A stretch of 64,000 nt of DNA from Sedimenticola sp. GTDB lineage: Bacteria; Pseudomonadota; Gammaproteobacteria; Chromatiales; Chromatiaceae. Shown piece after piece: positions 6,150 to 18,436 of this stretch. The translations under genes were made by a program, and so were the position numbers. The notes below the pieces were generated by a model. That model did not search any database. It worked only from the letters and a program-made list of their open reading frames with translations, and was not told the DNA's origin. Each line of letters opens with the position of its first letter. Position 1 is the stretch's first letter. Where the stretch lies: the NCBI GenBank assembly GCA_002869585.1, contig PKUO01000002.1, positions 62,001 through 126,000 on the forward strand, given 5' to 3'.

Positions 6150-6512
6150 ATGGCAAGCATTCTTGCAGTAGATGATTCCGCCTCGATGCGTCAAATGGTC
6201 TCATTCACCCTAAAGGGTGCGGGATACGAGGTATTGGAAGCGGCAGATGGTGTGGAAGCGTTGGGTATCGCCAAAACCCGCAGTGTGGATTTGGTCATTA
6301 CCGATGTGAATATGCCCAATATGGATGGCATCAGCCTGATTCAAAACCTGCGTACTCTGCCCACCTATAAATTTACCCCGCTATTGATGCTGACCACCGA
6401 GTCCAGTCCGGAAAAGAAGCAGCAGGGCAAGGCGGCCGGTGCGACCGGCTGGATTGTAAAGCCGTTCAATCCGGAGCAGTTACTCAATACCGTGAAAAAA
6501 GTCATCCGCTAG
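6150..6512 (+). CDS. cheY: Chemotaxis response regulator CheY
   Basis: Single receiver domain of 120 residues, phosphorylated by CheA and acting on the flagellar switch. It has the acidic pair (AVDDSASMR), the phosphoacceptor Asp in VITDVNMPNMDG, the Thr in MLTTE and the Lys in VKPFNPEQL. No output domain is present. It is the first gene behind the sigma-28 type promoter. The frame ends in TAG, one of many TAG stops in the window. Confidence 0.93.
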   Translation: MASILAVDDSASMRQMVSFTLKGAGYEVLEAADGVEALGIAKTRSVDLVITDVNMPNMDGISLIQNLRTLPTYKFTPLLMLTTESSPEKKQQGKAAGATGWIVKPFNPEQLLNTVKKVIR

Positions 6513-6535: not shown

Positions 6536-6644
6536 ATTGCAGGGGGCGGATTAATGGTAATTGACATGGCGCGCCGACGAGGCCGCAATAGAAACCTTCG
6601 TCTGTAAATTGCAGGGGGCGGATTAATGGTAATTGACATGGCGC
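6536..6644 (+). repeat. 37-bp direct repeat duplicating the cheA translation start
   Basis: The same 37 bases, starting ATTGCAGGGGGCGGATTAAT and ending GACATGGCGC, occur at 6536-6572 and 6608-6644 with a 35-base spacer. Each copy contains a ribosome binding site (AGGGGGCGG) and ATG-GTA-ATT-GAC-ATG-GCG. Only the second copy leads into cheA. The offset is 72 bases, so both ATGs share a frame but are separated by a TAA. Confidence 0.95.
6554..6607 (+). other. 17-codon decoy frame upstream of cheA
   Basis: The first repeat copy opens an ATG frame that begins like CheA (MVIDMA), runs RRRGRNRNLRL and stops at TAA 6605-6607, nineteen bases before the cheA ATG. It has the same ribosome binding site as cheA, so it should be translated. 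It may lower cheA expression or couple it to upstream translation. It is probably a by-product of the duplication rather than a functional peptide. Confidence 0.5.
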
Positions 6645-8716
6645 AGTTCCATCAGGTGTTTTTCGAGGAGAGCATCGAAGGACTTGATGTAATGGAATCC
6701 GGGTTGCTGAATATGGATCCCGGTACCGTTGATCCGGAAGAGATCAACGCCATTTTTCGTGCCGCGCATTCCATCAAGGGCGGTAGTGGAACCTTTGGTT
6801 TCAGTGAAATTGCCAGCTTCACCCATGTCATGGAGACCCTGCTGGATGAGATGCGCGACGGCCGAAGGGCGGTGACCGCCCAGGCAGTCGAGGCGTTGCT
6901 GCGTTCGGTCGATGTGCTGCGGGAGATGCTGAAGTCGGTATCGGCCGGCGATGAGATCGATGCTGACGAAGTCCGTTCCCAGCAGAATGAGCTTGAGGCC
7001 ATCCTGCGTAACCAGGCAGCCGTCGATCCGCAACAGGAGACGACCACGGCCGCTGTGGACGATGTGACTCCCAGTGGCTGGCATATCGTGTTTCGGCCGC
7101 ACTCACACATGATGCGTACCGGCAATGATCCACTGCGGATTATCCGCGAGTTGGCTGAGCTCGGTGATACCGAGGTCAAGGGCGATGCCTCCCTGGTGCC
7201 TCGCTTTGCGGAATTCGATCCCGAGGAGTGTTTTCTCAGTTGGGAGATCACGCTGCATGGCGAGGTGGACAGAAGCGCCGTGGCGGATGTGTTCGATTGG
7301 GTCGAGGATGATTGCGACCTGTCGGTAGCACCGATCTACCCAGAGGCCGCGACTGAAGCCCAACCCCAGGCTGCACCGCTGGCCGTTCAACCCGTGGCTG
7401 CGGCTCCGGTTCCTGAACAGGACGAGCGGCGCAAGGGTGATCGTCGTAACGACGACCGGCGCGCACCGGTTGACCGCAGGCAAGGCGACCGTCGTAATGG
7501 CCCCGCCGCCGGCGGTTCCAGCTCGATCCGGGTCGACATCAACAAGATAGATGGCCTGATCAACATGGTCGGCGAACTGGTCATTACCCAGTCCATGCTC
7601 AGTCTGCTGGGTGAGGATTTTGGTATGGATCGGGTTGAGCGCCTGCAGGACGGTCTGGCCCAGCTCGAGCGGCATACCCGGGAACTGCAGGAGAGTGTCA
7701 TGCAGATTCGCATGCTGCCGATCAGTTTTACCTTCAGTCGTTTTCCGCGCCTGGTTCATGATCTGAGCACCAAGATGGGCAAAAAGATCGAACTGAAAAT
7801 GAGCGGCGAACATACCGAAGTGGACAAGACGGTGATCGAAAAGATCGGCGACCCGCTGGTCCATCTGGTGCGCAACAGCCTGGATCATGGTATCGAGATG
7901 CCCGAGGTGCGCAAGGCCGCTGGCAAGCCGGAAACCGGGACTGTGCACCTGAATGCGGCCCATCGTGGCGGCAATATCATTATCGAAATACGCGATGACG
8001 GCAAAGGCCTGGACCGTGACCGGATTGCGAGCAAGGCGGTCGAGCGCGGCCTGATTCCGGAAGACCATAACCTCAGCGACCAGCAGATTTACGAACTGAT
8101 TTTTCAACCCGGCTTTTCCACCGCCGACCAGGTGAGTGACGTTTCCGGGCGTGGTGTCGGTATGGACGTGGTGCGCAGAAATATCAACGAGCTGGGTGGC
8201 AATATCGAGATTGAATCCGAACTGGGCGAGGGCAGCGCGATTATTATCCGGCTGCCGCTGACCCTGGCGATTCTCGACGGTCAGACCATTTCGGTCGGGG
8301 ATGAAACCTATATCGTGCCACTGGTTTCGATCATTGAATCGATTCAGCCGAAACGCGAGATGATCAACCTGGTGGCGGGCCGTGGCGAGACCTTCAAGCT
8401 GAGAAATGAGTACCTGCCGATCGTGCGCCTGCATGAGATTTTTGGCATCGACTCGGTGAACGCCTCCGAGTTGGTGGATGGCCTGTTGGTTGTGGTCGAG
8501 GGCGATGGCAAGCGCTGTGGCCTGTTTGTTGATGATCTGATTGGCCAGCAGCAGGTGGTGATCAAGTCTCTGGAAGCCAACTATCGCCGCGTTGACGGCA
8601 TCTCCGGGGCAACGATTCTGGGTGATGGCTCGGTCGCGCTGATTCTGGATATCCCGGGAATCATCCGTCTGGCCAGCGAGAAAAAACCGCTGGAAAGCCT
8701 GAGAAAATCCGCATGA
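6626..8716 (+). CDS. cheA: Chemotaxis histidine kinase CheA
   Basis: Kinase of the receptor array, 696 residues. HPt domain with phospho-accepting His48 (AAHSIKGGSGTFGF). A long variable linker contains an unusual Asp/Arg-rich stretch (DERRKGDRRNDDRR and DRRQGDRR, about residues 268-290). A dimerisation domain starts near 298, an HATPase domain carries N-box HLVRNSLDHGIE and DDGKGLD, and a CheW-like domain starts near 548. No separate CheY-binding P2 domain is recognised. The start is in the second copy of a duplicated ribosome binding site. Confidence 0.95.
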   Translation: MVIDMAQFHQVFFEESIEGLDVMESGLLNMDPGTVDPEEINAIFRAAHSIKGGSGTFGFSEIASFTHVMETLLDEMRDGRRAVTAQAVEALLRSVDVLREMLKSVSAGDEIDADEVRSQQNELEAILRNQAAVDPQQETTTAAVDDVTPSGWHIVFRPHSHMMRTGNDPLRIIRELAELGDTEVKGDASLVPRFAEFDPEECFLSWEITLHGEVDRSAVADVFDWVEDDCDLSVAPIYPEAATEAQPQAAPLAVQPVAAAPVPEQDERRKGDRRNDDRRAPVDRRQGDRRNGPAAGGSSSIRVDINKIDGLINMVGELVITQSMLSLLGEDFGMDRVERLQDGLAQLERHTRELQESVMQIRMLPISFTFSRFPRLVHDLSTKMGKKIELKMSGEHTEVDKTVIEKIGDPLVHLVRNSLDHGIEMPEVRKAAGKPETGTVHLNAAHRGGNIIIEIRDDGKGLDRDRIASKAVERGLIPEDHNLSDQQIYELIFQPGFSTADQVSDVSGRGVGMDVVRRNINELGGNIEIESELGEGSAIIIRLPLTLAILDGQTISVGDETYIVPLVSIIESIQPKREMINLVAGRGETFKLRNEYLPIVRLHEIFGIDSVNASELVDGLLVVVEGDGKRCGLFVDDLIGQQQVVIKSLEANYRRVDGISGATILGDGSVALILDIPGIIRLASEKKPLESLRKSA

Positions 8717-8735
8717 TTAACGGATCGGAGTGAAC

Positions 8736-9263
8736 ATGTCAGAGGCATTGAAAACGCAGGGAACCAGGGTGCCCCAGCCAGAAATGGATCTCGAGTCCGT
8801 GGGGGCGGAGTACCTGACATTTCTCCTTGGTGCGGAAGACTATGGCGTGGATATTCTGCGTGTCCAGGAGATCCGGGGTTGGGAGCAGGTCACGCGCATA
8901 CCCAATCAGCCTGGCTATGTGAAAGGCGTACTTAACCTGCGGGGTTCCATTGTCCCGATTTTTGATTTGCGTGAACGCCTGGGTATGCCGGGACGGGACT
9001 ACGATAAGGCCACGGTGGTGATCGTGCTGAAGGTGCTCGATGAGTATTCGGAAAAGAGTGTTGGCGTGGTGGTCGATGGTGTATCCGATGTTCTCAATGC
9101 GACGGCAAAGGATATTGCGGCAACGCCTGATTTTGGCTCCCGCCTGGATACGGAATTCATCACCGGGCTGGCATCGGCCGGCGGCAAGATGATCATGCTG
9201 CTGGATGTGGATAAGTTGCAGCCGCCTGCAGGGCGGGAAAATGACGAATTTGATGAGGCCTGA
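8736..9263 (+). CDS. cheW: Chemotaxis adaptor CheW (first copy)
   Basis: Links CheA to receptors. 175 residues with the CheW fold: EYLTFLLGAEDYGVDILRVQEIRGWE, VKGVLNLRGSIVPIFDLRERLG and the end MIMLLDVDKL. ATG 8736 is preferred over GTG 8730 because GGAG lies five bases before it. About 25 residues of N-terminal extension and an acidic tail (ENDEFDEA) distinguish it from the second CheW at 11732. It lies 19 bases downstream of cheA. Confidence 0.93.
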   Translation: MSEALKTQGTRVPQPEMDLESVGAEYLTFLLGAEDYGVDILRVQEIRGWEQVTRIPNQPGYVKGVLNLRGSIVPIFDLRERLGMPGRDYDKATVVIVLKVLDEYSEKSVGVVVDGVSDVLNATAKDIAATPDFGSRLDTEFITGLASAGGKMIMLLDVDKLQPPAGRENDEFDEA

Positions 9264-9302: not shown

Positions 9303-11678
9303 GTGAAAGTCAATCAGCCGGTAACCGACCAAGAACATTTCATGAAGGATGGGTCTATCCTGGTTTCCAAGACAGACCTGAAAGGCAGCATTACCTATTG
9401 TAATCGTGATTTCATCGAGATCAGTGGTTACGCAGAATCGGAATTGCTGGGCAAAAACCACAATATGGTTCGTCATCCCGACATGCCGCCGGAAGCCTTT
9501 CAGGATTTGTGGGATACCCTGAATTCCGGCAAGCCCTGGACGGGTATTGTCAAGAATCGCTGCAAGAACGGTGATTTTTACTGGGTAAAAGCCAATGTCA
9601 CGCCGCTCTCCCAAAGCGGCAGGGTGAATGAGTATATGTCGGTGCGCACCAAACCCTCCCGCGAGGAGATTGCATCGGCAGAGGCGCTTTACCGCGATGT
9701 CAACGCCAAAAAGGCCACACTGGAAAACAGGGGTGTTGCCAGGCTTATAGAAAAATTCAAGGGCATCAGGATCAGAACACTGCTGGCGGCAACGGTGGTG
9801 CTGACGGTGGCTGCATTTGCGGCCCTGGCGGGGATGATCTATCTGGGCGTGCCCAATATCTATGTCTACGGCATCCTCGGCGCAATGTCGGTGATGACGC
9901 TGCTGTTCGGACTGTCGCTCACCTCCTATGTGACCAAGCCGCTGATTTATGCAAGAGAAAAGCTGTTGCAGATCTCCGAGGGCAACTATTTCGACTGGGT
10001 GGATGTGACCCGGAATGATGAACTGGGCGACCTGCTGCAATCGATCAAGTCGACGCAGATCAAGCTGGGCTTTGATGTAATGGATGCACGGGAACAGGCT
10101 TCGGCGGCAATCAGGATCAAAACGGCCCTGGATAACGTCTCAAGCTCGGTGATGATGGCCGATCCTGAGCTGAATATCATCTACATGAATAAGACCGTGG
10201 AGCAGCTGTTCAAGGATGCGGAAAGCGATATTCGCAAAGACCTGCCGGAGTTTGATGCCAGTGTGCTGCTGGGCAGTAACATCGACCAGTTCCACAAGAA
10301 CCCCTCACATCAGCGGAAACTGCTTGAATCACTGGCGGCCAGCTATGCCTCGGAGATCAAGATTGGCGGGCGCACCCTGCGTGTGGTGGCCAATCCCGTG
10401 GTCGATGAAAGTGGTCATCGGCTTGGCACCGCCGTCGAATGGACCGATCGGACGGCAGAAGTGGCGGTCGAGGAAGAGATCGACAGTATCGTCGTCGCGG
10501 CGCAAGCGGGTGATTTGACCAAGCGTATCGACCTGATGAACAAAACCGGTTTCTTCAAGGAACTGGGTGATGGTATCAACTCCTTCATCACAGTCGTGGA
10601 GCAGGTGTTTGATGATATCGCAACGGCAATGAGCAGCATGGCCAGGGGCGACATGACCAAGCCGATCACCAATGAATACGAAGGTAAATTCGGCGCTGTG
10701 AAGCAGGATGTCAACGAGACCATGAGCCGTCTTGAGCAGATTGTCTCTGAGATGCGCGACTCGGCCGAGGTGATCACCACCGCAGCCAATGAAATATCGG
10801 CAGGCAACAACAATCTCTCGGCACGCACGGAACAGCAGGCGAGCGCCCTGGAAGAGACCGCCTCCAGCATGGAGGAACTTACCAGCACCGTTAAAAACAA
10901 CGCGGATAATGCCCAGCAGGCGAATCAGCTGGCGGCCAGCGCCCGCCAGACCGCAGAGAAGGGCGGTGATGTGGTCAGTCGTGCCGTGCAGGCGATGGAG
11001 GCGATCAATTCATCCTCAGGGAAAATTGCTGAAATCATCGGTGTGATCGATGAGATTGCCTTCCAGACCAATCTGCTGGCCTTGAACGCCTCGGTTGAAG
11101 CGGCGCGTGCCGGCGAGCAGGGACGGGGATTTGCCGTGGTGGCCACTGAAGTCAGAAATCTTGCGGGGCGCAGCGCGACAGCCGCAAAAGAGATCAAGGA
11201 GTTGATCAACGACAGTGCTGAAAAGGTCAATGTTGGTGCGCAACTGGTGAATGATTCAGGCGCGACCCTGGAAGAGATCGTCAATGGTGTGAAAAAAGTG
11301 GGCGACATCATCTCCGAAATTGCCGCCGCCAGCGCCGAGCAGTCGGCCGGTATCGATCAGGTCAATCAGGCCGTTACCAGCATGGATGAAGTAACCCAGC
11401 AAAACGCGGCGCTTGCCGAGCAGACTTCCGCCGCCTCGGCTTCGATGAGCGAGAAGGCGATGGAGATGGACAAACTGATGAGCTTCTTTGCCGTTTCCCG
11501 CGCAAGCGGCAGAAGGCCGCCGGTTGAAAGCGTACATAAAGCAGTAGCACCTGCGGCCCCACGGCCTGGCAGGGTGGAGCCGCCGGCTCCGCGCCGTCCT
11601 TCGGCGCCTGCCGCAGCGGTCAAGGTGGCGGCGGTGGCGGCATCAGATGACGATGGTGATGAGTGGGAAGAGTTCTAA
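9303..11678 (+). CDS. PAS-containing methyl-accepting chemotaxis protein (Aer-like) with EWEEF tail
   Basis: Receptor of 791 residues with GTG start and GGAG upstream. It begins NQPVT and has an Aer-type N-terminal PAS domain (residues about 10-115, [22 protein letters not shown]). Two close membrane segments at about 158-207, with almost no periplasmic loop, are followed by HAMP and a second PAS-like domain (about 270-390). The signalling domain has the conserved hairpin tip [22 protein letters not shown]. It has no periplasmic sensing domain, so it should read an internal redox or energy signal; FAD binding is inferred. A flexible Pro/Ala-rich tail ends in EWEEF, matching the x-W-x-x-F pentapeptide that tethers CheR and CheB. 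Confidence 0.93.
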
Positions 11679-11731: not shown

Positions 11732-12217
11732 ATGAGTGGTGAAGTGGCAGTGGCAAAGGGTGGTCAATACCTGAGTTTTACTCTGGGCGGAGAGGATTAT
11801 GGCGTGGATATCCTCAAGGTGCAGGAGATAAAAGGCTGGGAAGAGGTCAGGCCGCTCCCGGATACCCCGGAGTATGTGAAGGGGGTGCTGGATTTTCGCG
11901 GGACCATCGTGCCGATTATCGATCTCAGAAGTCGTTTCAATTTAAAGAGCATCGAGTACACGCCAACCACCGTGACAATTGTGATAGCCGCGGAAGTGAA
12001 TGGCAGCTCGCACATCATTGGTATGGTGGTGGACAGTGTTTCAGACGTGCTGGATGTATCGGTCAAGGATATCCGCAACGCACCGAATCTGGGGGCCAAA
12101 ATCAACACCCGCTACATTCTCGGGATGGTCAATCAGGATCAGCGTATGGTGATTCTGCTGGATACGGACAAGTTGCTCGACCCTGACGAGTTGGGTGTTC
12201 TTGACGTTATCGGCTGA
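11732..12217 (+). CDS. cheW: Chemotaxis adaptor CheW (second copy)
   Basis: 161 residues, CheW fold throughout: YLSFTLGGEDYGVDILKVQEIKGWE, VKGVLDFRGTIVPIIDLRSRF and MVILLDTDKLL. GAGG precedes the ATG. It is clearly paralogous to the CheW at 8736 but lacks that copy's N-terminal extension. Standing just after the receptor gene, it may serve a different receptor or array layer. Both copies look intact. Confidence 0.92.
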   Translation: MSGEVAVAKGGQYLSFTLGGEDYGVDILKVQEIKGWEEVRPLPDTPEYVKGVLDFRGTIVPIIDLRSRFNLKSIEYTPTTVTIVIAAEVNGSSHIIGMVVDSVSDVLDVSVKDIRNAPNLGAKINTRYILGMVNQDQRMVILLDTDKLLDPDELGVLDVIG

Positions 12218-12238: not shown

Positions 12239-12997
12239 ATGAAGTCGATTGCGGTAATCAACCAGAAAGGTGGAGTCGGTAAAACCACGGTTACTGCGAA
12301 CCTCGGGCATGCGCTGGCCCAGCATGGCAAGCATGTCACCCTGATCGATCTCGATCCCCAGGGGCAGTTGTCTGCCAGTCTGGGGCTGTTTCGGCCACCC
12401 AAGCAGGGTATCGACGAGGTGATGCTCAACGCTGCGAGCATTGAGTCGGTGAGCGTCAGTACCCGCGAGGGACTGATGCTGGTGCCTGCCGGGGCTAACC
12501 TCGGCGATGTGGAAAAGCAGTCTGCCGAAGGGGTTCAGCGGGCGCTGTTGCTGCAGAAGGGGATGCAGAGATCGGGGTCTGACAAAGACTATCTGCTGAT
12601 CGACTGTCCGCCATCATCCGGCCTGTTAATGGCAAACGCCATTATGGCGGTTGATGAGGTGCTGATCCCGGTCACCGGTGATTATCTGGGTCTGAATGGA
12701 CTGGCGCACCTGCTGGCGACCCTCAAGCAGTTTGAGCGGCTACGCCATCGTCCCCTAGGCCGGCGTGTGCTGTTGAGCCGCCTGGTGGCCCGCAGGCGGT
12801 TGTCAAAAGAGGTGGTGGGGAAACTGAAGAACCACTTCCCCGGAAAAATCATGGCCACCGCAGTCCGGGAGGCCGCGGTGTTGGCGGAATGTCCGGGAGT
12901 GGGGCGAACCATATTTGAATACCGCCCCGGCAGCGTGTCGGCAAAAGAGTTTACTGCCCTGGCCGTGGATCTTATCGAAGGACGCATGATGTCATGA
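12239..12997 (+). CDS. ParA/Soj-family ATPase of the chemotaxis cluster
   Basis: 252 residues with the deviant Walker A KGGVGKTT (residues 10-17), LIDLDPQGQ and YLLIDCPPS. This is the ParA/MinD type that dimerises on ATP and often binds DNA. In chemotaxis clusters such ATPases (ParC, PpfA) space receptor arrays so that both daughter cells inherit them; that role is inferred from position. The stop overlaps the ATG of the STAS gene (ATGTCATGACG region), implying translational coupling with a likely partner. No parB lies nearby, which argues against chromosome or plasmid segregation. Confidence 0.85.
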   Translation: MKSIAVINQKGGVGKTTVTANLGHALAQHGKHVTLIDLDPQGQLSASLGLFRPPKQGIDEVMLNAASIESVSVSTREGLMLVPAGANLGDVEKQSAEGVQRALLLQKGMQRSGSDKDYLLIDCPPSSGLLMANAIMAVDEVLIPVTGDYLGLNGLAHLLATLKQFERLRHRPLGRRVLLSRLVARRRLSKEVVGKLKNHFPGKIMATAVREAAVLAECPGVGRTIFEYRPGSVSAKEFTALAVDLIEGRMMS

Positions 12998-13488
12998 CGG
13001 GAACAGACGGACAGAGCAGAAAGAGACAGAAACCCAGTGCGGTGATGAAGCACGACCCACTGGCGGAAATCGATGATTTGTCCGAGACGCCGGTTCCTGT
13101 TGATGCGGATAGGGACGCTGGCGCGATGGAGAACCCAGTGACGACCGAAGCCGTGCTGGATGCTGTGTCTGCGATGCCAAGCTCAATGAAGGAGAATGCA
13201 ATGACCGATCAGACTGAACTCGACCTGGGAAGCAGCCTGACCATATTAGACGTTGGCGACTGGTACCAGAAAATGGCCGGGTTATGTGATGCCGGCGGAA
13301 GCATCTCTCTCAAGGGCGGCGATATTGATCAGATCGATGGCGCCGGAGTGCAGTTGCTGGCGGCATTCATCAAAGAGGCCGCGCACCTGCAGGTGGCGAT
13401 TACCTGGACCTCGGTGTCCAAGGTGCTAGCCGAGGCGGTGCGTATCGTCGGATTGAGAGATGCCGTGCATATCAGCGCCGACAGTTAA
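12994..13488 (+). CDS. STAS-domain protein with basic, disordered N-terminus
   Basis: 164 residues. Residues 1-69 are low in complexity: a basic start (TGTDGQSRKRQKPS) followed by acidic and Ala/Pro-rich sequence. Residues 70-164 form a STAS (MlaB/SpoIIAA-like) domain with GGDIDQIDGAGVQLLAAFI, where the usual phosphorylatable Ser is replaced by Gly-Ala. An internal ATG at 13201 has an excellent ribosome binding site (AAGGAG), so a short STAS-only form of 95 residues may also be made. The long form overlaps the ParA gene by four bases. Basic N-terminal peptides commonly stimulate ParA ATPases, so a partner role is plausible. Confidence 0.7.
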   Translation: MTGTDGQSRKRQKPSAVMKHDPLAEIDDLSETPVPVDADRDAGAMENPVTTEAVLDAVSAMPSSMKENAMTDQTELDLGSSLTILDVGDWYQKMAGLCDAGGSISLKGGDIDQIDGAGVQLLAAFIKEAAHLQVAITWTSVSKVLAEAVRIVGLRDAVHISADS

Positions 13489-13510
13489 CCAGACATCGGA
13501 TGGAAAAAAC

Positions 13511-14083
13511 ATGTCTAGCGATTCAATAGTACACGCGCCTTCGAATTCCAGGGCCCCGGATCTGGATTGGAGCCAGATTCGTGAAACGGTCCGGATGCTG
13601 CATCTGGCTGTCGCGCAGATCGAGATGGCGATGCGTGAAGGGGATGACTCTATAAACACACTGAGCAGCTCTTTCACAACGATGATCGAAAAGGTCAATG
13701 CAATCTCTGCGGCCTCGGCAATGATTGACGGGGAGGGGGAAGCGCGAACCATGATCCAGGAGAACTGTGCAACAGTCACTTCCGGGATGCACACCTCGAT
13801 CGTTGCCTTTCAGTTTTACGACAAGCTTTCACAACGGTTGCAGCATGTGGCCGAGAGCCTGTCGGCGCTGTCCGGGCTGGTCAGTGATAATCAGCGGCTG
13901 TTCAACCCGGGTGAGTGGATGGGTCTCCAGGATCACATCCTCTCCAAATACAGCATGCAGGAAGAGGTGAACATGTTTAATGCACTGCTCAGCGGAGCGA
14001 GCATCGAAGAGGCATTGCAACTCTACCAGGTGAAGCAGTCCGATGAGAGTGGCGAACACTCGAATGATATCGAGTTGTTCTAG
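13511..14083 (+). CDS. Chemotaxis-operon protein with CheZ-like D-x-x-x-Q helix and -IELF tail
   Basis: 190 residues, mostly helical. ATG 13511 is chosen (GGATGG upstream) over an ATG at 13460 inside the previous gene. The segment FQFYDKLSQRLQHV places Asp104 and Gln108 as in the CheZ catalytic helix (E. coli Asp143 and Gln147 in FQDLTGQ). The C-terminus NDIELF is a short acidic-hydrophobic tail like the CheY-binding end of CheZ. A role as CheY-P phosphatase is therefore suggested, but overall similarity to CheZ is not obvious. No other cheZ is present in the operon. Confidence 0.55.
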   Translation: MSSDSIVHAPSNSRAPDLDWSQIRETVRMLHLAVAQIEMAMREGDDSINTLSSSFTTMIEKVNAISAASAMIDGEGEARTMIQENCATVTSGMHTSIVAFQFYDKLSQRLQHVAESLSALSGLVSDNQRLFNPGEWMGLQDHILSKYSMQEEVNMFNALLSGASIEEALQLYQVKQSDESGEHSNDIELF

Positions 14084-14118: not shown

Positions 14119-14958
14119 GTGGACGAAAGGCAAAGGGAGTTTTCGTTTTCCCATCGTGATTTCGATTTCCTGCGCAAGGTGGCCAATCAGCGCACGGGCA
14201 TAGTCGTCACTGATGAAAAATTCGATATGTTCTACTCGCGGCTTTCCCGCCGGGTCCGGGCTCTGGGTCTGCAGAGCTTCAGTGAATATTGCGATCTGAT
14301 CAAGAATGAAAAAAGTGACAAGGAGGTGCTCGAACTTGTCAATGCGATCACCACCAATCTCACCGCATTTTTCCGCGAGAATCACCACTTTGAATATCTC
14401 GCCAGCACGCTGATTCCACAACTGCTGAAGCGCAATGCCGCCAGTCGCCGGATCCGTGTCTGGTCTTCCGGTTGTTCAACCGGAGAGGAACCCTACTCCC
14501 TGGCGATGACGCTGAAGGAGAATGTGCCTGCAGGCTGGCAGATCGATCTGCTGGCAACAGACATCGATTCCAATGTGCTCGCCAAAGCCGCCTCCGGCAT
14601 CTATGCCCTGGATCGCGTCACCGGTATTCCCTCTCAGCGATTACGCCGCTGGTTTGTCAGGGGCAAAGGGAGTAAAGCGGGGTATGTACGCCTCAAGCCG
14701 GAGATCCGGCAGATGATCAGTTTCGGCCAGCTCAACCTGATGGAGAACTGGTCGTTTGATGAGATGTTCGATGTCATCTTCTGTCGGAATGTCATTATCT
14801 ATTTCGATAAGGTATCCAAGGCGGGTCTGGTGGAGCGCTATGCCGATAACCTGACGGCTGACGGTCACCTGTTTATCGGCCACTCGGAATCCCTGTTCAA
14901 GCTGACTGAGCGGTTTTCCCTGATTGGCCACACCATTTACCGAAAGACCGGAGGCTAG
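14119..14958 (+). CDS. cheR: Chemotaxis protein methyltransferase CheR
   Basis: Methylates receptor glutamates using S-adenosylmethionine. 279 residues, GTG start. An N-terminal helical domain (FDFLRKVANQRTGIVV) and the methyltransferase domain with RIRVWSSGCSTGEEPYSLAM, ATDIDSNVL and FDVIFCRNVIIYFD are present. No TPR extension is present. It probably docks on the EWEEF tail of the receptor at 9303. It stands 35 bases after the CheZ-like gene and four bases before cheD. Confidence 0.95.
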   Translation: MDERQREFSFSHRDFDFLRKVANQRTGIVVTDEKFDMFYSRLSRRVRALGLQSFSEYCDLIKNEKSDKEVLELVNAITTNLTAFFRENHHFEYLASTLIPQLLKRNAASRRIRVWSSGCSTGEEPYSLAMTLKENVPAGWQIDLLATDIDSNVLAKAASGIYALDRVTGIPSQRLRRWFVRGKGSKAGYVRLKPEIRQMISFGQLNLMENWSFDEMFDVIFCRNVIIYFDKVSKAGLVERYADNLTADGHLFIGHSESLFKLTERFSLIGHTIYRKTGG

Positions 14959-14961
14959 GGA

Positions 14962-15600
14962 ATGTTTACCCGCACGGCCAGTGAGTTGCCCAGAGTCCTT
15001 CAGGGGTTCGAGAGTATCAACCGCTATTGGGACAGGACTCACGCCATTCCAGCGGCGAAGATCCTGCCCGGTGAATACTATGTGACGGCCAACGATGAAC
15101 TGATCACCACGGTGCTGGGTTCCTGTGTGTCGGCCTGCATCAGGGATCGCGTGTTTGGCATCGGTGGGATGAACCATTTCATGCTGCCGGCATCCGATAA
15201 CGGTGGCTGGGGGAGTGGCAATGATATCGCCAGTACCGCCAACCGGTATGGCAACTACGCCATGGAACATATGATCAACGATATTCTGAAAAACGGCGGG
15301 CATCGTCGCAACCTGGAAGTGAAAATCTTCGGGGGCGGGAGGATTATCCACACCGGAACGGATGTCGGGAACAACAATATCGATTTCGTCCGGAGCTACA
15401 TAAAAACCGAGGGTCTGACGCTGGTGAGTGAGGATGTCGGTGACATCTATCCGCGGAAGATTGTCTATTTCCCGGCAACCGGCCGGGTGCGGGTAAAGAA
15501 ACTGAAAAACATGCACAACGATACCGTGGTGCGGCGCGAGCGCGAATACCAGAAAAACATTCTGGATGTGCCGGTTGCCGGCGAGATCGAGCTGTTTTAA
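14962..15600 (+). CDS. cheD: Chemoreceptor glutamine deamidase CheD, with -EIELF tail
   Basis: Deamidates receptor glutamines to glutamates. 212 residues with catalytic Cys in LGSCVSACIRD and His in GGMNHFMLP. The protein is longer than the minimal CheD (about 160). It has an N-terminal extension, and a C-terminal segment after the core ends GEIELF, nearly the same tail as the 13511 protein and the 16852 receptor. No cheC was found. cheB follows in the same frame, 17 codons after the TAA. Confidence 0.92.
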   Translation: MFTRTASELPRVLQGFESINRYWDRTHAIPAAKILPGEYYVTANDELITTVLGSCVSACIRDRVFGIGGMNHFMLPASDNGGWGSGNDIASTANRYGNYAMEHMINDILKNGGHRRNLEVKIFGGGRIIHTGTDVGNNNIDFVRSYIKTEGLTLVSEDVGDIYPRKIVYFPATGRVRVKKLKNMHNDTVVRREREYQKNILDVPVAGEIELF

Positions 15601-15651: not shown

Positions 15652-16731
15652 ATTATTAAAGTCCTGATAGTTGATGACTCCGCGCTGGTGCGCCAGTTGC
15701 TGACGGAGATTCTCAATTCAGCGTCTGGTATTGAAGTGGTCGGCGTGGCGTCCGATCCCTTCGTGGCCCGTGAGAAGATCAAAAAACTCAATACCGATGT
15801 CATTACCCTGGATGTCGAGATGCCGCGTATGGATGGCGTTACCTTTCTCAGCAACCTGATGCGGTTGCGGCCCATGCCGGTGGTGATGATCTCGTCACTG
15901 ACCGAGCAGGGTGCAGATGTGACCCTCAGGGCGCTTGAACTGGGTGCGGTCGATTTCGTCTCCAAACCAAAACTGGATGTCGCCAAGGGTCTGGAAGCCT
16001 ATTCTGATGAGATTATCGCCAAGGTTCTCGCGGCTGCCGGAGCGAGGGTGCAGGCCATTACCCGGCGACCGGACAAGCCCGCCTCCGGGATAATGGTGCA
16101 GGAGAAGTATTCCGCAGACGCCGTGTTGAGCAAGAGCGGCTCCCGCCGCCATTTCCGCACAACCGATCGCATCATCGGCATTGGCGCCTCTACCGGAGGC
16201 ACAGAGGCGATCAAGGCGGTGCTGAGTGCCATGCCGCCGGATATGCCGGGCATCGTTATTTCCCAACACATACCCGAAGCCTTCAGCAAGCCGTTTGCCG
16301 CGCGGGTAAACAGTCAGAGCCAACTGACGGTGGTGGAGGCGAGCGATGGTCAGCAGATTCTCGCTGGACACGCCTATATCGCCCCAGGCAACAGGCACCT
16401 GGTTGTGCAGCGCGATGGCGCCCGTTATATCTGCAAGCTGAATGATGGTCCACCCGTCAACCGGCATAAGCCCTCGGTGGATGTCATGTTTCGTTCCTTG
16501 GCTATGAATGCCGGACCCAATGCGATAGCGGTGATGCTGACCGGTATGGGCGATGACGGCGCCGCAGGGGTGGGCGAGATGCGTGAGGCCGGGGCGCTGA
16601 CCGTTGCCCAGGATGAGAAGACCAGCGTTGTCTGGGGCATGCCCGGCGAAGTGGTCAAGCGCGGTTTTGCCGATGCGGTGCTGCCGCTCAACAAAATTTC
16701 TACACACCTTGAGCAGATCGCATTTACCTAG
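15652..16731 (+). CDS. cheB: Chemotaxis methylesterase CheB with non-standard start codon
   Basis: Phosphorylation-activated receptor methylesterase and deamidase. Receiver domain ([12 protein letters not shown], phospho-Asp in [15 protein letters not shown]), linker, then the esterase domain with catalytic Ser in [11 protein letters not shown], His in SQHIPEAF and Asp in [10 protein letters not shown]. No ATG, GTG or TTG exists between the cheD stop and the receiver. The first standard start, GTG 15688, would remove the acidic pocket. AGAGG at 15634-15638 is followed by ATA (15649), ATT (15652) and ATT (15655). Starting at 15652 gives the family N-terminus [10 protein letters not shown] (359 residues). 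ATA 15649 has better spacing and could be a mutated ATG. Confidence 0.85.
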
Positions 16732-16851: not shown

Positions 16852-18078
16852 ATGCTGGAGTACTTCAAGCAGTATTGGATAGTCCTGTCTGGGAGTGCGA
16901 TAGTCCTGGTTCTCGCTGCTGTGACCGGTGCCGGCGCAGAAGTGCTTGGCTGGGTTGCCGCTACCTTGCTGATCTGGGTGGTGTTTACCCTGGTTACTGC
17001 CCGATTGGCGAAGATCAATGCAAGTCGTGCAAGGGGCAGTTCGATTACAGAGAAACAGGCGGTTGAGCAAGCGTTCCACGGCCTGATCGGAGATGTGGAT
17101 CAGGTGGTCGGTGATCTGTCCCGGCAGCTGCGCAACGACCTGGGCCAGATCCAGGATCTGATCGCCGATGCTGTCAGCAGCCTTCAGGACGCCTTTCATG
17201 GACTGAACAGCCAGTCTATAGCCCAGCAGCAGATTGTCCTGAAAACGGTACATGACATTGGCCGGTCCCATCAGGCCGGTGAAGAGGATGAAATCGCCAC
17301 CTTTCAGGATTTTGCCGACGAGATCGACACGGTTCTGCAGGTGTTCGTCAAACACGTCGTCGAGGTCAGTTCCGACGGCATAGGACTGGTGGATCAGATT
17401 GATCATATGGTCGTGCAGATGAACAAGGCCGATGATCTGCTCAAGGATGTGAAGGGTATCGCCGATCAGACCAACCTTCTAGCCCTGAATGCAGCTATTG
17501 AGGCGGCACGGGCGGGCGAGGCTGGACGCGGGTTTGCTGTAGTGGCAGAAGAGGTGCGCGCCCTCTCTCAGCGTTCGGATCGATTCAACGATGAGATCCG
17601 CACGGTGCTTAGCGAGTCGCGCCGCAATATCGAGGCGGCCCGTGATCTGGTGTCACGTTTTGCCTCCAAGGATATGAATTTCGCCATCCAGTCAAAGTCA
17701 CGGGTGGATCAGATGCGCTCCCAGGTGGCGGGAATCAACCAGCAGGTCGAGCAGAATCTGGGTGAGGTTTCAACCCTGGTCGAGGGTATCAACACCACTG
17801 TTGGGCATGCCGTGAGATCCCTGCAGTTTGAGGATATCGTCAACCAGCTTGCCGGTTATGCACAAAATCACCTCAATCACCTGGAGCAGGTGGTGGGCAT
17901 GCTCGATTCCGGCGTGCAACAGTTTGATTCCGCTGATGCAAATGATTGCCGGCAACTTGTCGGAACCCTGCAGAGGCTCAGGTCGCAAGTCAGTGATATG
18001 CATCACCAACATCAGGCGCAAACCCACAAACCGGTTGACCAGCAGTCGATGGATGAGGGCGGGGTTGAACTGTTCTAG
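16852..18078 (+). CDS. Methyl-accepting chemotaxis protein with C-terminal CheZ-like motif and -VELF tail
   Basis: 408 residues. Two N-terminal membrane helices (about 9-28 and 31-50) leave no periplasmic domain. The receptor signalling hairpin lies at about 202-245 ([20 protein letters not shown]). After it comes a helix [13 protein letters not shown] with Asp328 and Gln332 spaced as in CheZ, then a charged His/Gln-rich linker and the tail GGVELF. It may be a short cytoplasm-facing receptor that also acts on CheY-P, or a scaffold. The same motif pair occurs in the 13511 protein. The sensory input is unknown. Confidence 0.8.
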
Positions 18079-18136: not shown

Positions 18137-18436
18137 ATGAGCGTGACAGTCAACGAGTCACAAGATAAGACAGAAGTGACAATCAATGTGAGAGGACGCT
18201 TTGACTTCTCCTGCCATCAGGATTTCATGCGTGCCTACAAAGCCTATCCGAAAGGGGATAAGCGTTTTGTTGTCGATCTGAAAGACACCGAATACATGGA
18301 CAGTTCGGCAATGGGCATGCTGTTGCAGATCAGGGAATACAGTGCCCAGAATGGTGTGTTGCTGCAAAATGGCAATGACAGTGTCAAGGAGATACTGCGC
18401 ATAGCGAATTTTGACAAGCTATTCACAATCACCTGA
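18137..18436 (+). CDS. STAS-domain protein (anti-sigma factor antagonist-like)
   Basis: 99 residues, a single STAS domain. It has the conserved Ser pair at the phosphorylation site (EYMDSSAMGMLLQIRE), unlike the STAS protein at 12994. It is the last gene of the chemotaxis operon, 58 bases after the receptor. Such proteins are switched by a Ser kinase and a PP2C phosphatase; none is adjacent, though a PP2C gene lies at 46327. The target is unknown. Confidence 0.85.
   Translation: MSVTVNESQDKTEVTINVRGRFDFSCHQDFMRAYKAYPKGDKRFVVDLKDTEYMDSSAMGMLLQIREYSAQNGVLLQNGNDSVKEILRIANFDKLFTIT

Follow-up and report, generated by a model that had tools for sequence, protein, structure and literature searches.

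A protein family with a putative CheZ-type active-site helix, homologous to the C-terminal module of short chemoreceptors

Introduction

Many accessory chemosensory clusters contain CheD with no CheZ, CheC or CheX adjoining it, and to our knowledge the switching-off of phosphorylated CheY (CheY-P) in such clusters has hardly been put to the test. CheC, CheX and FliY have an alpha/beta fold. Phosphatases of the CheC/CheX/FliY type carry an ExxN motif, CheZ and NarX-type kinases have an acid and an amide spaced as DxxxQ, and in CheX and CheZ the acid/amide pair coordinates the water that attacks phospho-CheY (available part of PMC3510030). An AXXF(Y)Q motif adjoins DXXXQ in CheZ, where the Gln before the Asp is the most conserved, according to the accessible text of PMC7750401. 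For 871 genomes whose only CheA bears a CheY-like domain, a preprint, in the portion at hand, reports that 811 lack known chemosensory phosphatases, and its authors invoke a phosphate sink (PMC10542144).

We analysed a 64,000-nucleotide stretch of DNA from Sedimenticola sp. (the window), in which a chemosensory cluster encodes a small protein, here called X, with a DxxxQ motif. X is proposed to share CheY-P as substrate with CheC, CheX and FliY, but is predicted to be all-helical and not alpha/beta. With the NarX-type HisKA_3 proteins it would share a helix on which acid and amide stand four residues from each other (same part of PMC3510030); those proteins, however, are histidine kinases, to which X has no sequence relation in the Pfam scan.

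Gene cluster and sequence of X

The genes of the cluster are arranged in the order cheY, cheA, cheW, MCP1, cheW, parA, STAS, X, cheR, cheD, cheB, MCP2 and STAS-like (Table 1). Pfam annotation covers 7 of the 13 genes, cheA was recognised through PF02895, and the remaining ORFs were read by eye. At this depth of annotation no cheZ, cheC, cheX or fliY was seen, in agreement with the first-pass annotation, and the cluster has one stand-alone cheY. Its ParA and STAS genes form a separate pair. Elsewhere in the genome, ORFs read by eye in the flagellar cluster (G000:C53; L251:15286-16850) include a ParA-type ATPase and a CheW-like protein downstream of motCD, a pair that we take to be reminiscent of ParC/ParP.

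Table 1 Features of the chemosensory cluster (window coordinates) and loci of the ExxN family (locus coordinates)
Feature	Position	Strand	Basis or remark
cheY, presumed substrate of X	6150..6512	+	ORF by eye; relatives found with cheY as query
cheA	6626..8716	+	PF02895 at G000:C85:69517-69708
cheW	8730..9263	+	Read by eye
MCP1, PAS/HAMP chemoreceptor	9303..11678	+	Ends EWEEF, classical CheR pentapeptide type
Second cheW	11732..12217	+	Read by eye
ParA-type ATPase	12239..12997	+	ORF and Pfam/NCBIfam scans
STAS-domain protein	12994..13488	+	STAS_2 E 1.1e-6; 29.1 bits, cut-off 29.2
X	13511..14083	+	ORF translation; relatives from profile scans
Asp104 codon (DxxxQ) of X	13820..13822	+	D in 108/109 rows
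Gln108 codon (DxxxQ) of X	13832..13834	+	Q in 109/109 rows
NDIELF tail of X	14063..14080	+	pLDDT <50, probably disordered
cheR	14119..14958	+	Pfam scan
cheD	14962..15600	+	Ends EIELF; Pfam/NCBIfam scans
cheB	15688..16731	+	Read by eye
MCP2, short chemoreceptor, 408 aa	16852..18078	+	MCPsignal E 9e-28; ends GVELF
DxxxQ of MCP2 (D328, Q332 in LQFEDIVNQ)	17833..17847	+	Inspection of sequence
Small STAS-like protein	18137..18436	+	ORF by eye
ExxN family locus L280	2534..3049	-	
ExxN family locus L281	15573..16097	+	
ExxN family locus L291	8341..8964	-	
ExxN family loci L285, L286, L287, L292			

Translated from the ATG at 13511, X has 190 residues; the ORF spans 13460-14083, and its first in-frame ATG, upstream at 13460, would give 207. 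From residue 100 onward the protein reads FQFYDKLSQRLQHV, with D104 and Q108 four residues apart, and it ends in NDIELF; both readings of the first-pass annotation are exact in the translation. DxxxQ arises by composition in 52% of shuffles of X, so the motif per se is no evidence. The conservation of its two residues is another matter, exceeding in the aligned sequences what chance would give. In a set of 109 rows (103 non-identical sequences, the window's X included, plus six distant members from other families of the class), D104 is conserved in 108 and Q108 in 109, matching the catalytic DxxxQ of CheZ, and Q101, F102 and Y103 are each present in all 109. The terminal F190 is kept in every one of the 108 rows that extend to it. 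D104 is missing only from L031, a copy that lies where its contig begins and from which the normal C-terminal end is also absent. In alignment A2 (81 X rows), D104, Q108 and F190 are invariant at a mean column identity of 38%.

No Pfam or NCBIfam model attains its cut-off on X, and neither CheC nor CheX is among the four families that the Pfam scan lists for it with E values up to 10. PDB sequence searches with X and its profile gave chance-level matches only, and tblastn of plasmids with X gave zero matches. The literature searched, mostly from outside subscription journals, yielded no recognised account of X, nor any of a receptor tail resembling CheZ.

Predicted structure

AlphaFold2 run on A2 predicts X (mean pLDDT 76.9, pTM 0.62) as a long antiparallel hairpin of helices 20-69 and 77-125, followed by shorter helices. 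D104 and Q108 lie mid-way on the second long helix of the model, along which block pLDDT is 75-91; values fall below 50 at residues 1-10 and 181-190. In the sequence a hydrophobic stripe runs through F102, L106 and L110; D104 and Q108 lie off it and are, we infer, probably exposed. For the window's MCP2, a model built on eight rows also places D328 and Q332 in a helix, but at pLDDT 65 and pTM 0.36 it is too poor for use.

Fold searches are uninformative for a hairpin like that predicted for X. Foldseek gave no match at E ≤ 0.001 and unspecific helical matches only, and the top VIA-align Z of 9.3 is near those of many unrelated hairpins, with receptor hairpins among the generic matches. CheZ is absent among the listed matches of both programs, which is uninformative for or against a relationship.

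Distribution and genomic context

Within the order of the window's organism, 37 of 210 genomes have a match to X at E ≤ 0.001, 30 of them strong (E ≤ 8.6e-20), and five of the seven weak matches are frames of 403-494 aa. The class sample gave matches in 68 of 369 genomes, 38 at E ≤ 1.7e-20. A scan of GTDB contigs found 141 relatives, of which 80 were retained (L032-L111); they come mostly from gamma- and betaproteobacteria, with some from Desulfobacterota and Nitrospirota and one from a record labelled cyanobacterium.

Two kinds of context were found: X lies within or beside a che cluster, or it stands alone. The order loci (L002-L029, the window's included) are uniform, with X between STAS and cheR of one cluster and with cheR and cheD adjoining in 28 of 28. 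Among the 80 GTDB loci, X lies inside a che cluster in eight and has one nearby in four more (L039, L048, L055, L089); no che cluster was seen beside it in the other 68, as searched with 14 window proteins on contigs that are in some cases short. Any given neighbour family is common to at most ten of the orphan loci examined. In a tree of 107 X rows, cluster and orphan forms part with two changes where shuffling leads one to expect 30, although the bootstrap has yet to converge and a number of the distant rows sit on long branches.

A receptor module homologous to X

The X profile also matches frames of about 400 aa in many genomes (best E 4.6e-11 in the class sample). Those fetched are short receptors, in which an MCP signalling domain is followed by Q(F/Y)xDxxxQ and then by an ITFF/VTFF/IELF-like end. 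The motif is present in 20 of 20 receptor loci fetched through X- or CheZ-profile matches. A tail alignment, A4, led to loci with both Q(F/Y)xDxxxQ and a terminal F in 30 of 30 cases, a count to be read knowing that A4 itself contains motif and terminal F and that these are its best-scoring loci. With X matches counted in, A4 matches 127 of the 369 class genomes.

Profile-profile comparison by hhalign gave 98.3% (local) and 98.8% (global) probability between X and MCP2-like tails, at E 1e-14 to 5e-16, against 27% for reversed X and 3% for the reversed module. Such scores firmly support, at the level of sequence profiles, homology of X with the C-terminal module of these receptors of about 400 aa, one of which is MCP2 in the same cluster. 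Module and X are alike in Q[FY]xDxxxQ and the terminal F in those inspected. The module differs in being attached to an MCP signalling domain, in its mostly ITFF/VTFF-like tails and in lacking PDLDW, a motif present at the N terminus of X. We found no name for it.

Short receptors that combine Q(F/Y)xDxxxQ with a C-terminal Phe (L324-L353) are widespread in the class, and several share a contig with a cheD. A genomic DNA pattern for QFxDxxxQ gave 30 matches as against 11 for the backward pattern and was for that reason dropped as a gene finder.

C-terminal tails

All but one of the 109 X rows have [IVF][ED][LFMI]F as their C terminus, in one case with an extra Asp, and this conserved hydrophobic end follows a stretch of low model confidence. 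CheD carries the same end. In the window's cluster an [IV]ELF end recurs on CheD (EIELF) and MCP2 (GVELF), and every complete cheD of the first set of X clusters ends much like X; two CheDs (L288, L290) have VELF plus eight further residues. Among the 30 best-scoring loci of PRK13487-type CheD, 28 have an [IVA][ED]LF end with at most one further residue, ten of them in strong-X genomes and 18 in genomes without a strong X; of the other two, one was missed by the script and the match of the other is interrupted by a stop. CheD (window 14962-15600; L294-L323) appears to have a conserved docking tail, irrespective of X in the genome.

MCP1-type receptors have a W-x-x-F pentapeptide end in 3 of 8 and 6 of 10 cases (two cluster sets) and otherwise no such end, as against [IVF][ED]xF on X, CheD and MCP2 of these clusters, a difference that may point to two partners. 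System III receptors of Vibrio cholerae end in E-W/V-E-X-F, proposed in the available part of PMC11940527 as a CheR3 site. We regard the [IV]ELF tail as probably a docking peptide common to CheD, X and MCP2, with CheY, CheR or another hub as its possible partner. The first-pass annotation had likened the tail of X to the CheY-binding tail of CheZ; as CheD and MCP2 share it, and a similar end has been proposed as a CheR site, the likeness is weak evidence for CheY binding.

Relation to CheZ

X shares with CheZ, such as that of Escherichia coli or Azorhizobium, the spacing A-x-x-F-x-D-x-x-x-Q (A99, F102, D104 and Q108 in X), a chemotaxis context, a probably flexible C-terminal end with a terminal Phe and, if the model is right, the placement of DxxxQ on a hairpin helix. 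It departs from CheZ in having Tyr103 (109/109) where CheZ has the Gln before the Asp, so that AXXF(Y)Q is incomplete although A99 and F102 are kept. It also has extra predicted C-terminal helices, a different gene neighbourhood and an IELF tail, compared with ...DDLLSSLGF in the CheZ of its own genome, and it coexists with canonical CheZ.

Direct profile comparison, the check that the first-pass annotation had suggested, finds no match with CheZ. The CheZ profile PF04344 gave no row on X at E up to 10, and hhalign gave 0.07-0.5% probability. These runs set all X, X with the six distant members, or distant X only against CheZ of the own order (21 loci) or a wider set of 58 with alphaproteobacterial sequences among them, L242 and L243 having been left out as the motif was not found. 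Among the resulting insignificant local alignments, D and Q are in register in two all-X runs and out of register in the first own-order run and the distant-only run.

Local hhalign runs of the receptor module against CheZ gave 71% (own-order CheZ) and 63% and 75% (58 CheZ, two tail sets) at E 2.6e-5 to 7e-5, the Asp of one profile aligning with that of the other and likewise the Gln; a single global run gave 9%, and reversed controls 0.1-0.2%. The local scores of 38.7 and 41.5 are barely above block-shuffle maxima of 36.7 (40 shuffles) and 37.5 (60), and the column-shuffle maximum was 19.9 in 60. X (41 of 103 rows) and module merged gave 48% against CheZ, with E 1.9e-4, 101 columns in register and a score of 35.8; the shuffle controls cover the unmerged module. 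PF04344 matched six MCP2-like proteins below threshold (E 1.1e-4 to 2.1e-3), a biased sample chosen since the CheZ profile had matched them; it gave no match on the window's MCP2 or the L174 tail and none on six ordinary receptors (E ≤ 1).

These comparisons are suggestive of remote homology between receptor module and CheZ, short of proof. X itself may be remotely related to CheZ, through the receptor-borne module, with D and Q in register. Judged by its sequence, X represents a new family, distinct from canonical CheZ, whose putative active-site helix is of the CheZ type. The first-pass annotation had offered a divergent CheZ or an independent family: the independent family, with that helix, stands, and divergence from CheZ is not established, direct profile comparison having failed.

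CheZ and other phosphatases in X genomes

The genome of the window has one canonical cheZ (PF04344 E 3.3e-71, 240 bits), located in the flagellar cluster with cheY and cheA on either side, so X is an addition and no replacement. It also encodes three CheA-type kinases and one FliM and has no PF04509 (CheC) match. A canonical cheZ elsewhere in the genome is one of the two things that the first-pass annotation had weighed jointly against its proposal, and a need of this genome for a CheZ substitute is not supported.

CheZ accompanies X in most genomes scanned. Within the order, PF04344 is found in 30 of 30 strong-X genomes, compared with 122 of 210 overall; one genome with a weak X (G067, E 5e-14) has no PF04344 row. 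In the class, 30 of 36 scanned X genomes have a PF04344 match, 29 of them over the cut-off, the 36 being those with X at E ≤ 1.7e-20 (38) with G000 and G553 left out. The match in G429 is an 18-residue fragment at a contig edge. Of the six X genomes without PF04344, five (G277, G340, G407, G441, G480) have CheA and FliM, and G524 has neither. In G480, G340 and G441, X belongs to a che cluster and has cheR as a neighbour; it is an orphan in G277 and G407, yet both have a cheD cluster with MCP2 elsewhere. We considered X as the only CheY-P phosphatase of some genomes and dropped the idea, because four of the five (G480, G340, G407, G277) carry a CheX/CheC-like ExxN protein beside a cheY, and X cannot be called the sole phosphatase there.

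Proposed function and alternatives

By analogy with CheZ, we lean towards X being a stand-alone CheY-P phosphatase of a new family that works as CheZ does. X would fold as the predicted helical hairpin, perhaps dimerising into a four-helix bundle as CheZ does, and the exposed face of its second helix would present Asp104 and Gln108. These residues would reach into the active site of a CheY in its phosphorylated form, in all likelihood the product of the cluster's own cheY, where amide and carboxylate would hold the attacking water, while the floppy [IV]ELF tail would dock X on a partner within the signalling array. From the homologous module on MCP2 we propose that phosphatase activity may exist both free and receptor-attached, the module dephosphorylating CheY-P from within the array.

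The same homology could point elsewhere. X is homologous to the C-terminal module of chemoreceptors, which are coiled-coil proteins, receptor hairpins are among the many generic VIA matches, the tail is common to X, CheD and MCP2, and most of the X genomes scanned have a CheZ already, all of which would suit a non-catalytic array adaptor or scaffold whose invariant FQFYDxxxQ face binds CheA, CheW, CheR, ParA or a receptor hairpin and whose tail binds another partner. We consider this unlikely, though worth keeping in view: the residues kept most strictly in X include an Asp and a Gln with the four-residue spacing of CheZ and NarX-type phosphatases, and in the alignment of the module with CheZ these two are in register. 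X might instead be an adaptation factor derived from a receptor: a chemoreceptor tail set free, with an [IV]ELF end that tethers CheR (or CheB or CheD) to the array in the manner of a pentapeptide, a role compatible with the proposed CheR3 site on V. cholerae receptors and with X directly preceding cheR-cheD in clusters. It strikes us as improbable, for the pentapeptide-like ends of MCP1 are W-x-x-F and those of X, CheD and MCP2 are [IVF][ED]xF, which suggests, without proving, two partners; moreover, the invariant D/Q face would be left unexplained, and most orphan X genes have no cheR nearby.

A DxxxQ phosphatase could also serve another response regulator, be it an additional CheY, CheB or one that acts outside chemotaxis. 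Most GTDB loci show X alone, and several distant X lie in clusters with two cheY-like genes (L280, L281, L285, L286, L287); the fixed place of X between STAS and cheR of one cluster in 28 of 28 order loci and the single stand-alone cheY of the window's cluster nevertheless make us give this reading very little credence.

On the reading of X as a CheZ-type phosphatase of CheY-P, a wider proposal can be made tentatively, at somewhat less than an even chance: X and the short-receptor module may be an unrecognised DxxxQ phosphatase superfamily beside CheZ, occurring free (in part as orphans) and attached to receptors, and serving accessory systems thought to be without a phosphatase. If so, signal termination would be placed inside the chemoreceptor itself, and an active receptor-borne version would physically couple kinase input and phosphatase output in one receptor. 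X and the MCP2 module offer concrete, mutable candidates (D104/Q108 and D328/Q332), and the alignments would allow annotators to name a family that lies below every Pfam and NCBIfam cut-off.

The ExxN proteins met beside cheY form a family in their own right. Their frames of 160-208 aa adjoin a cheY-like gene, with cheB or flagellar genes nearby, and share invariant N-x-x-E-V-M-N-I and T-P-H-L motifs, with ExxN as in CheC and CheX; no convincing Pfam, NCBIfam or PDB match was found for them. We regard the family as a candidate divergent CheX-like phosphatase; the V. cholerae protein VC0377 is called a CheX-family protein in the accessible portion of PMC8789113.
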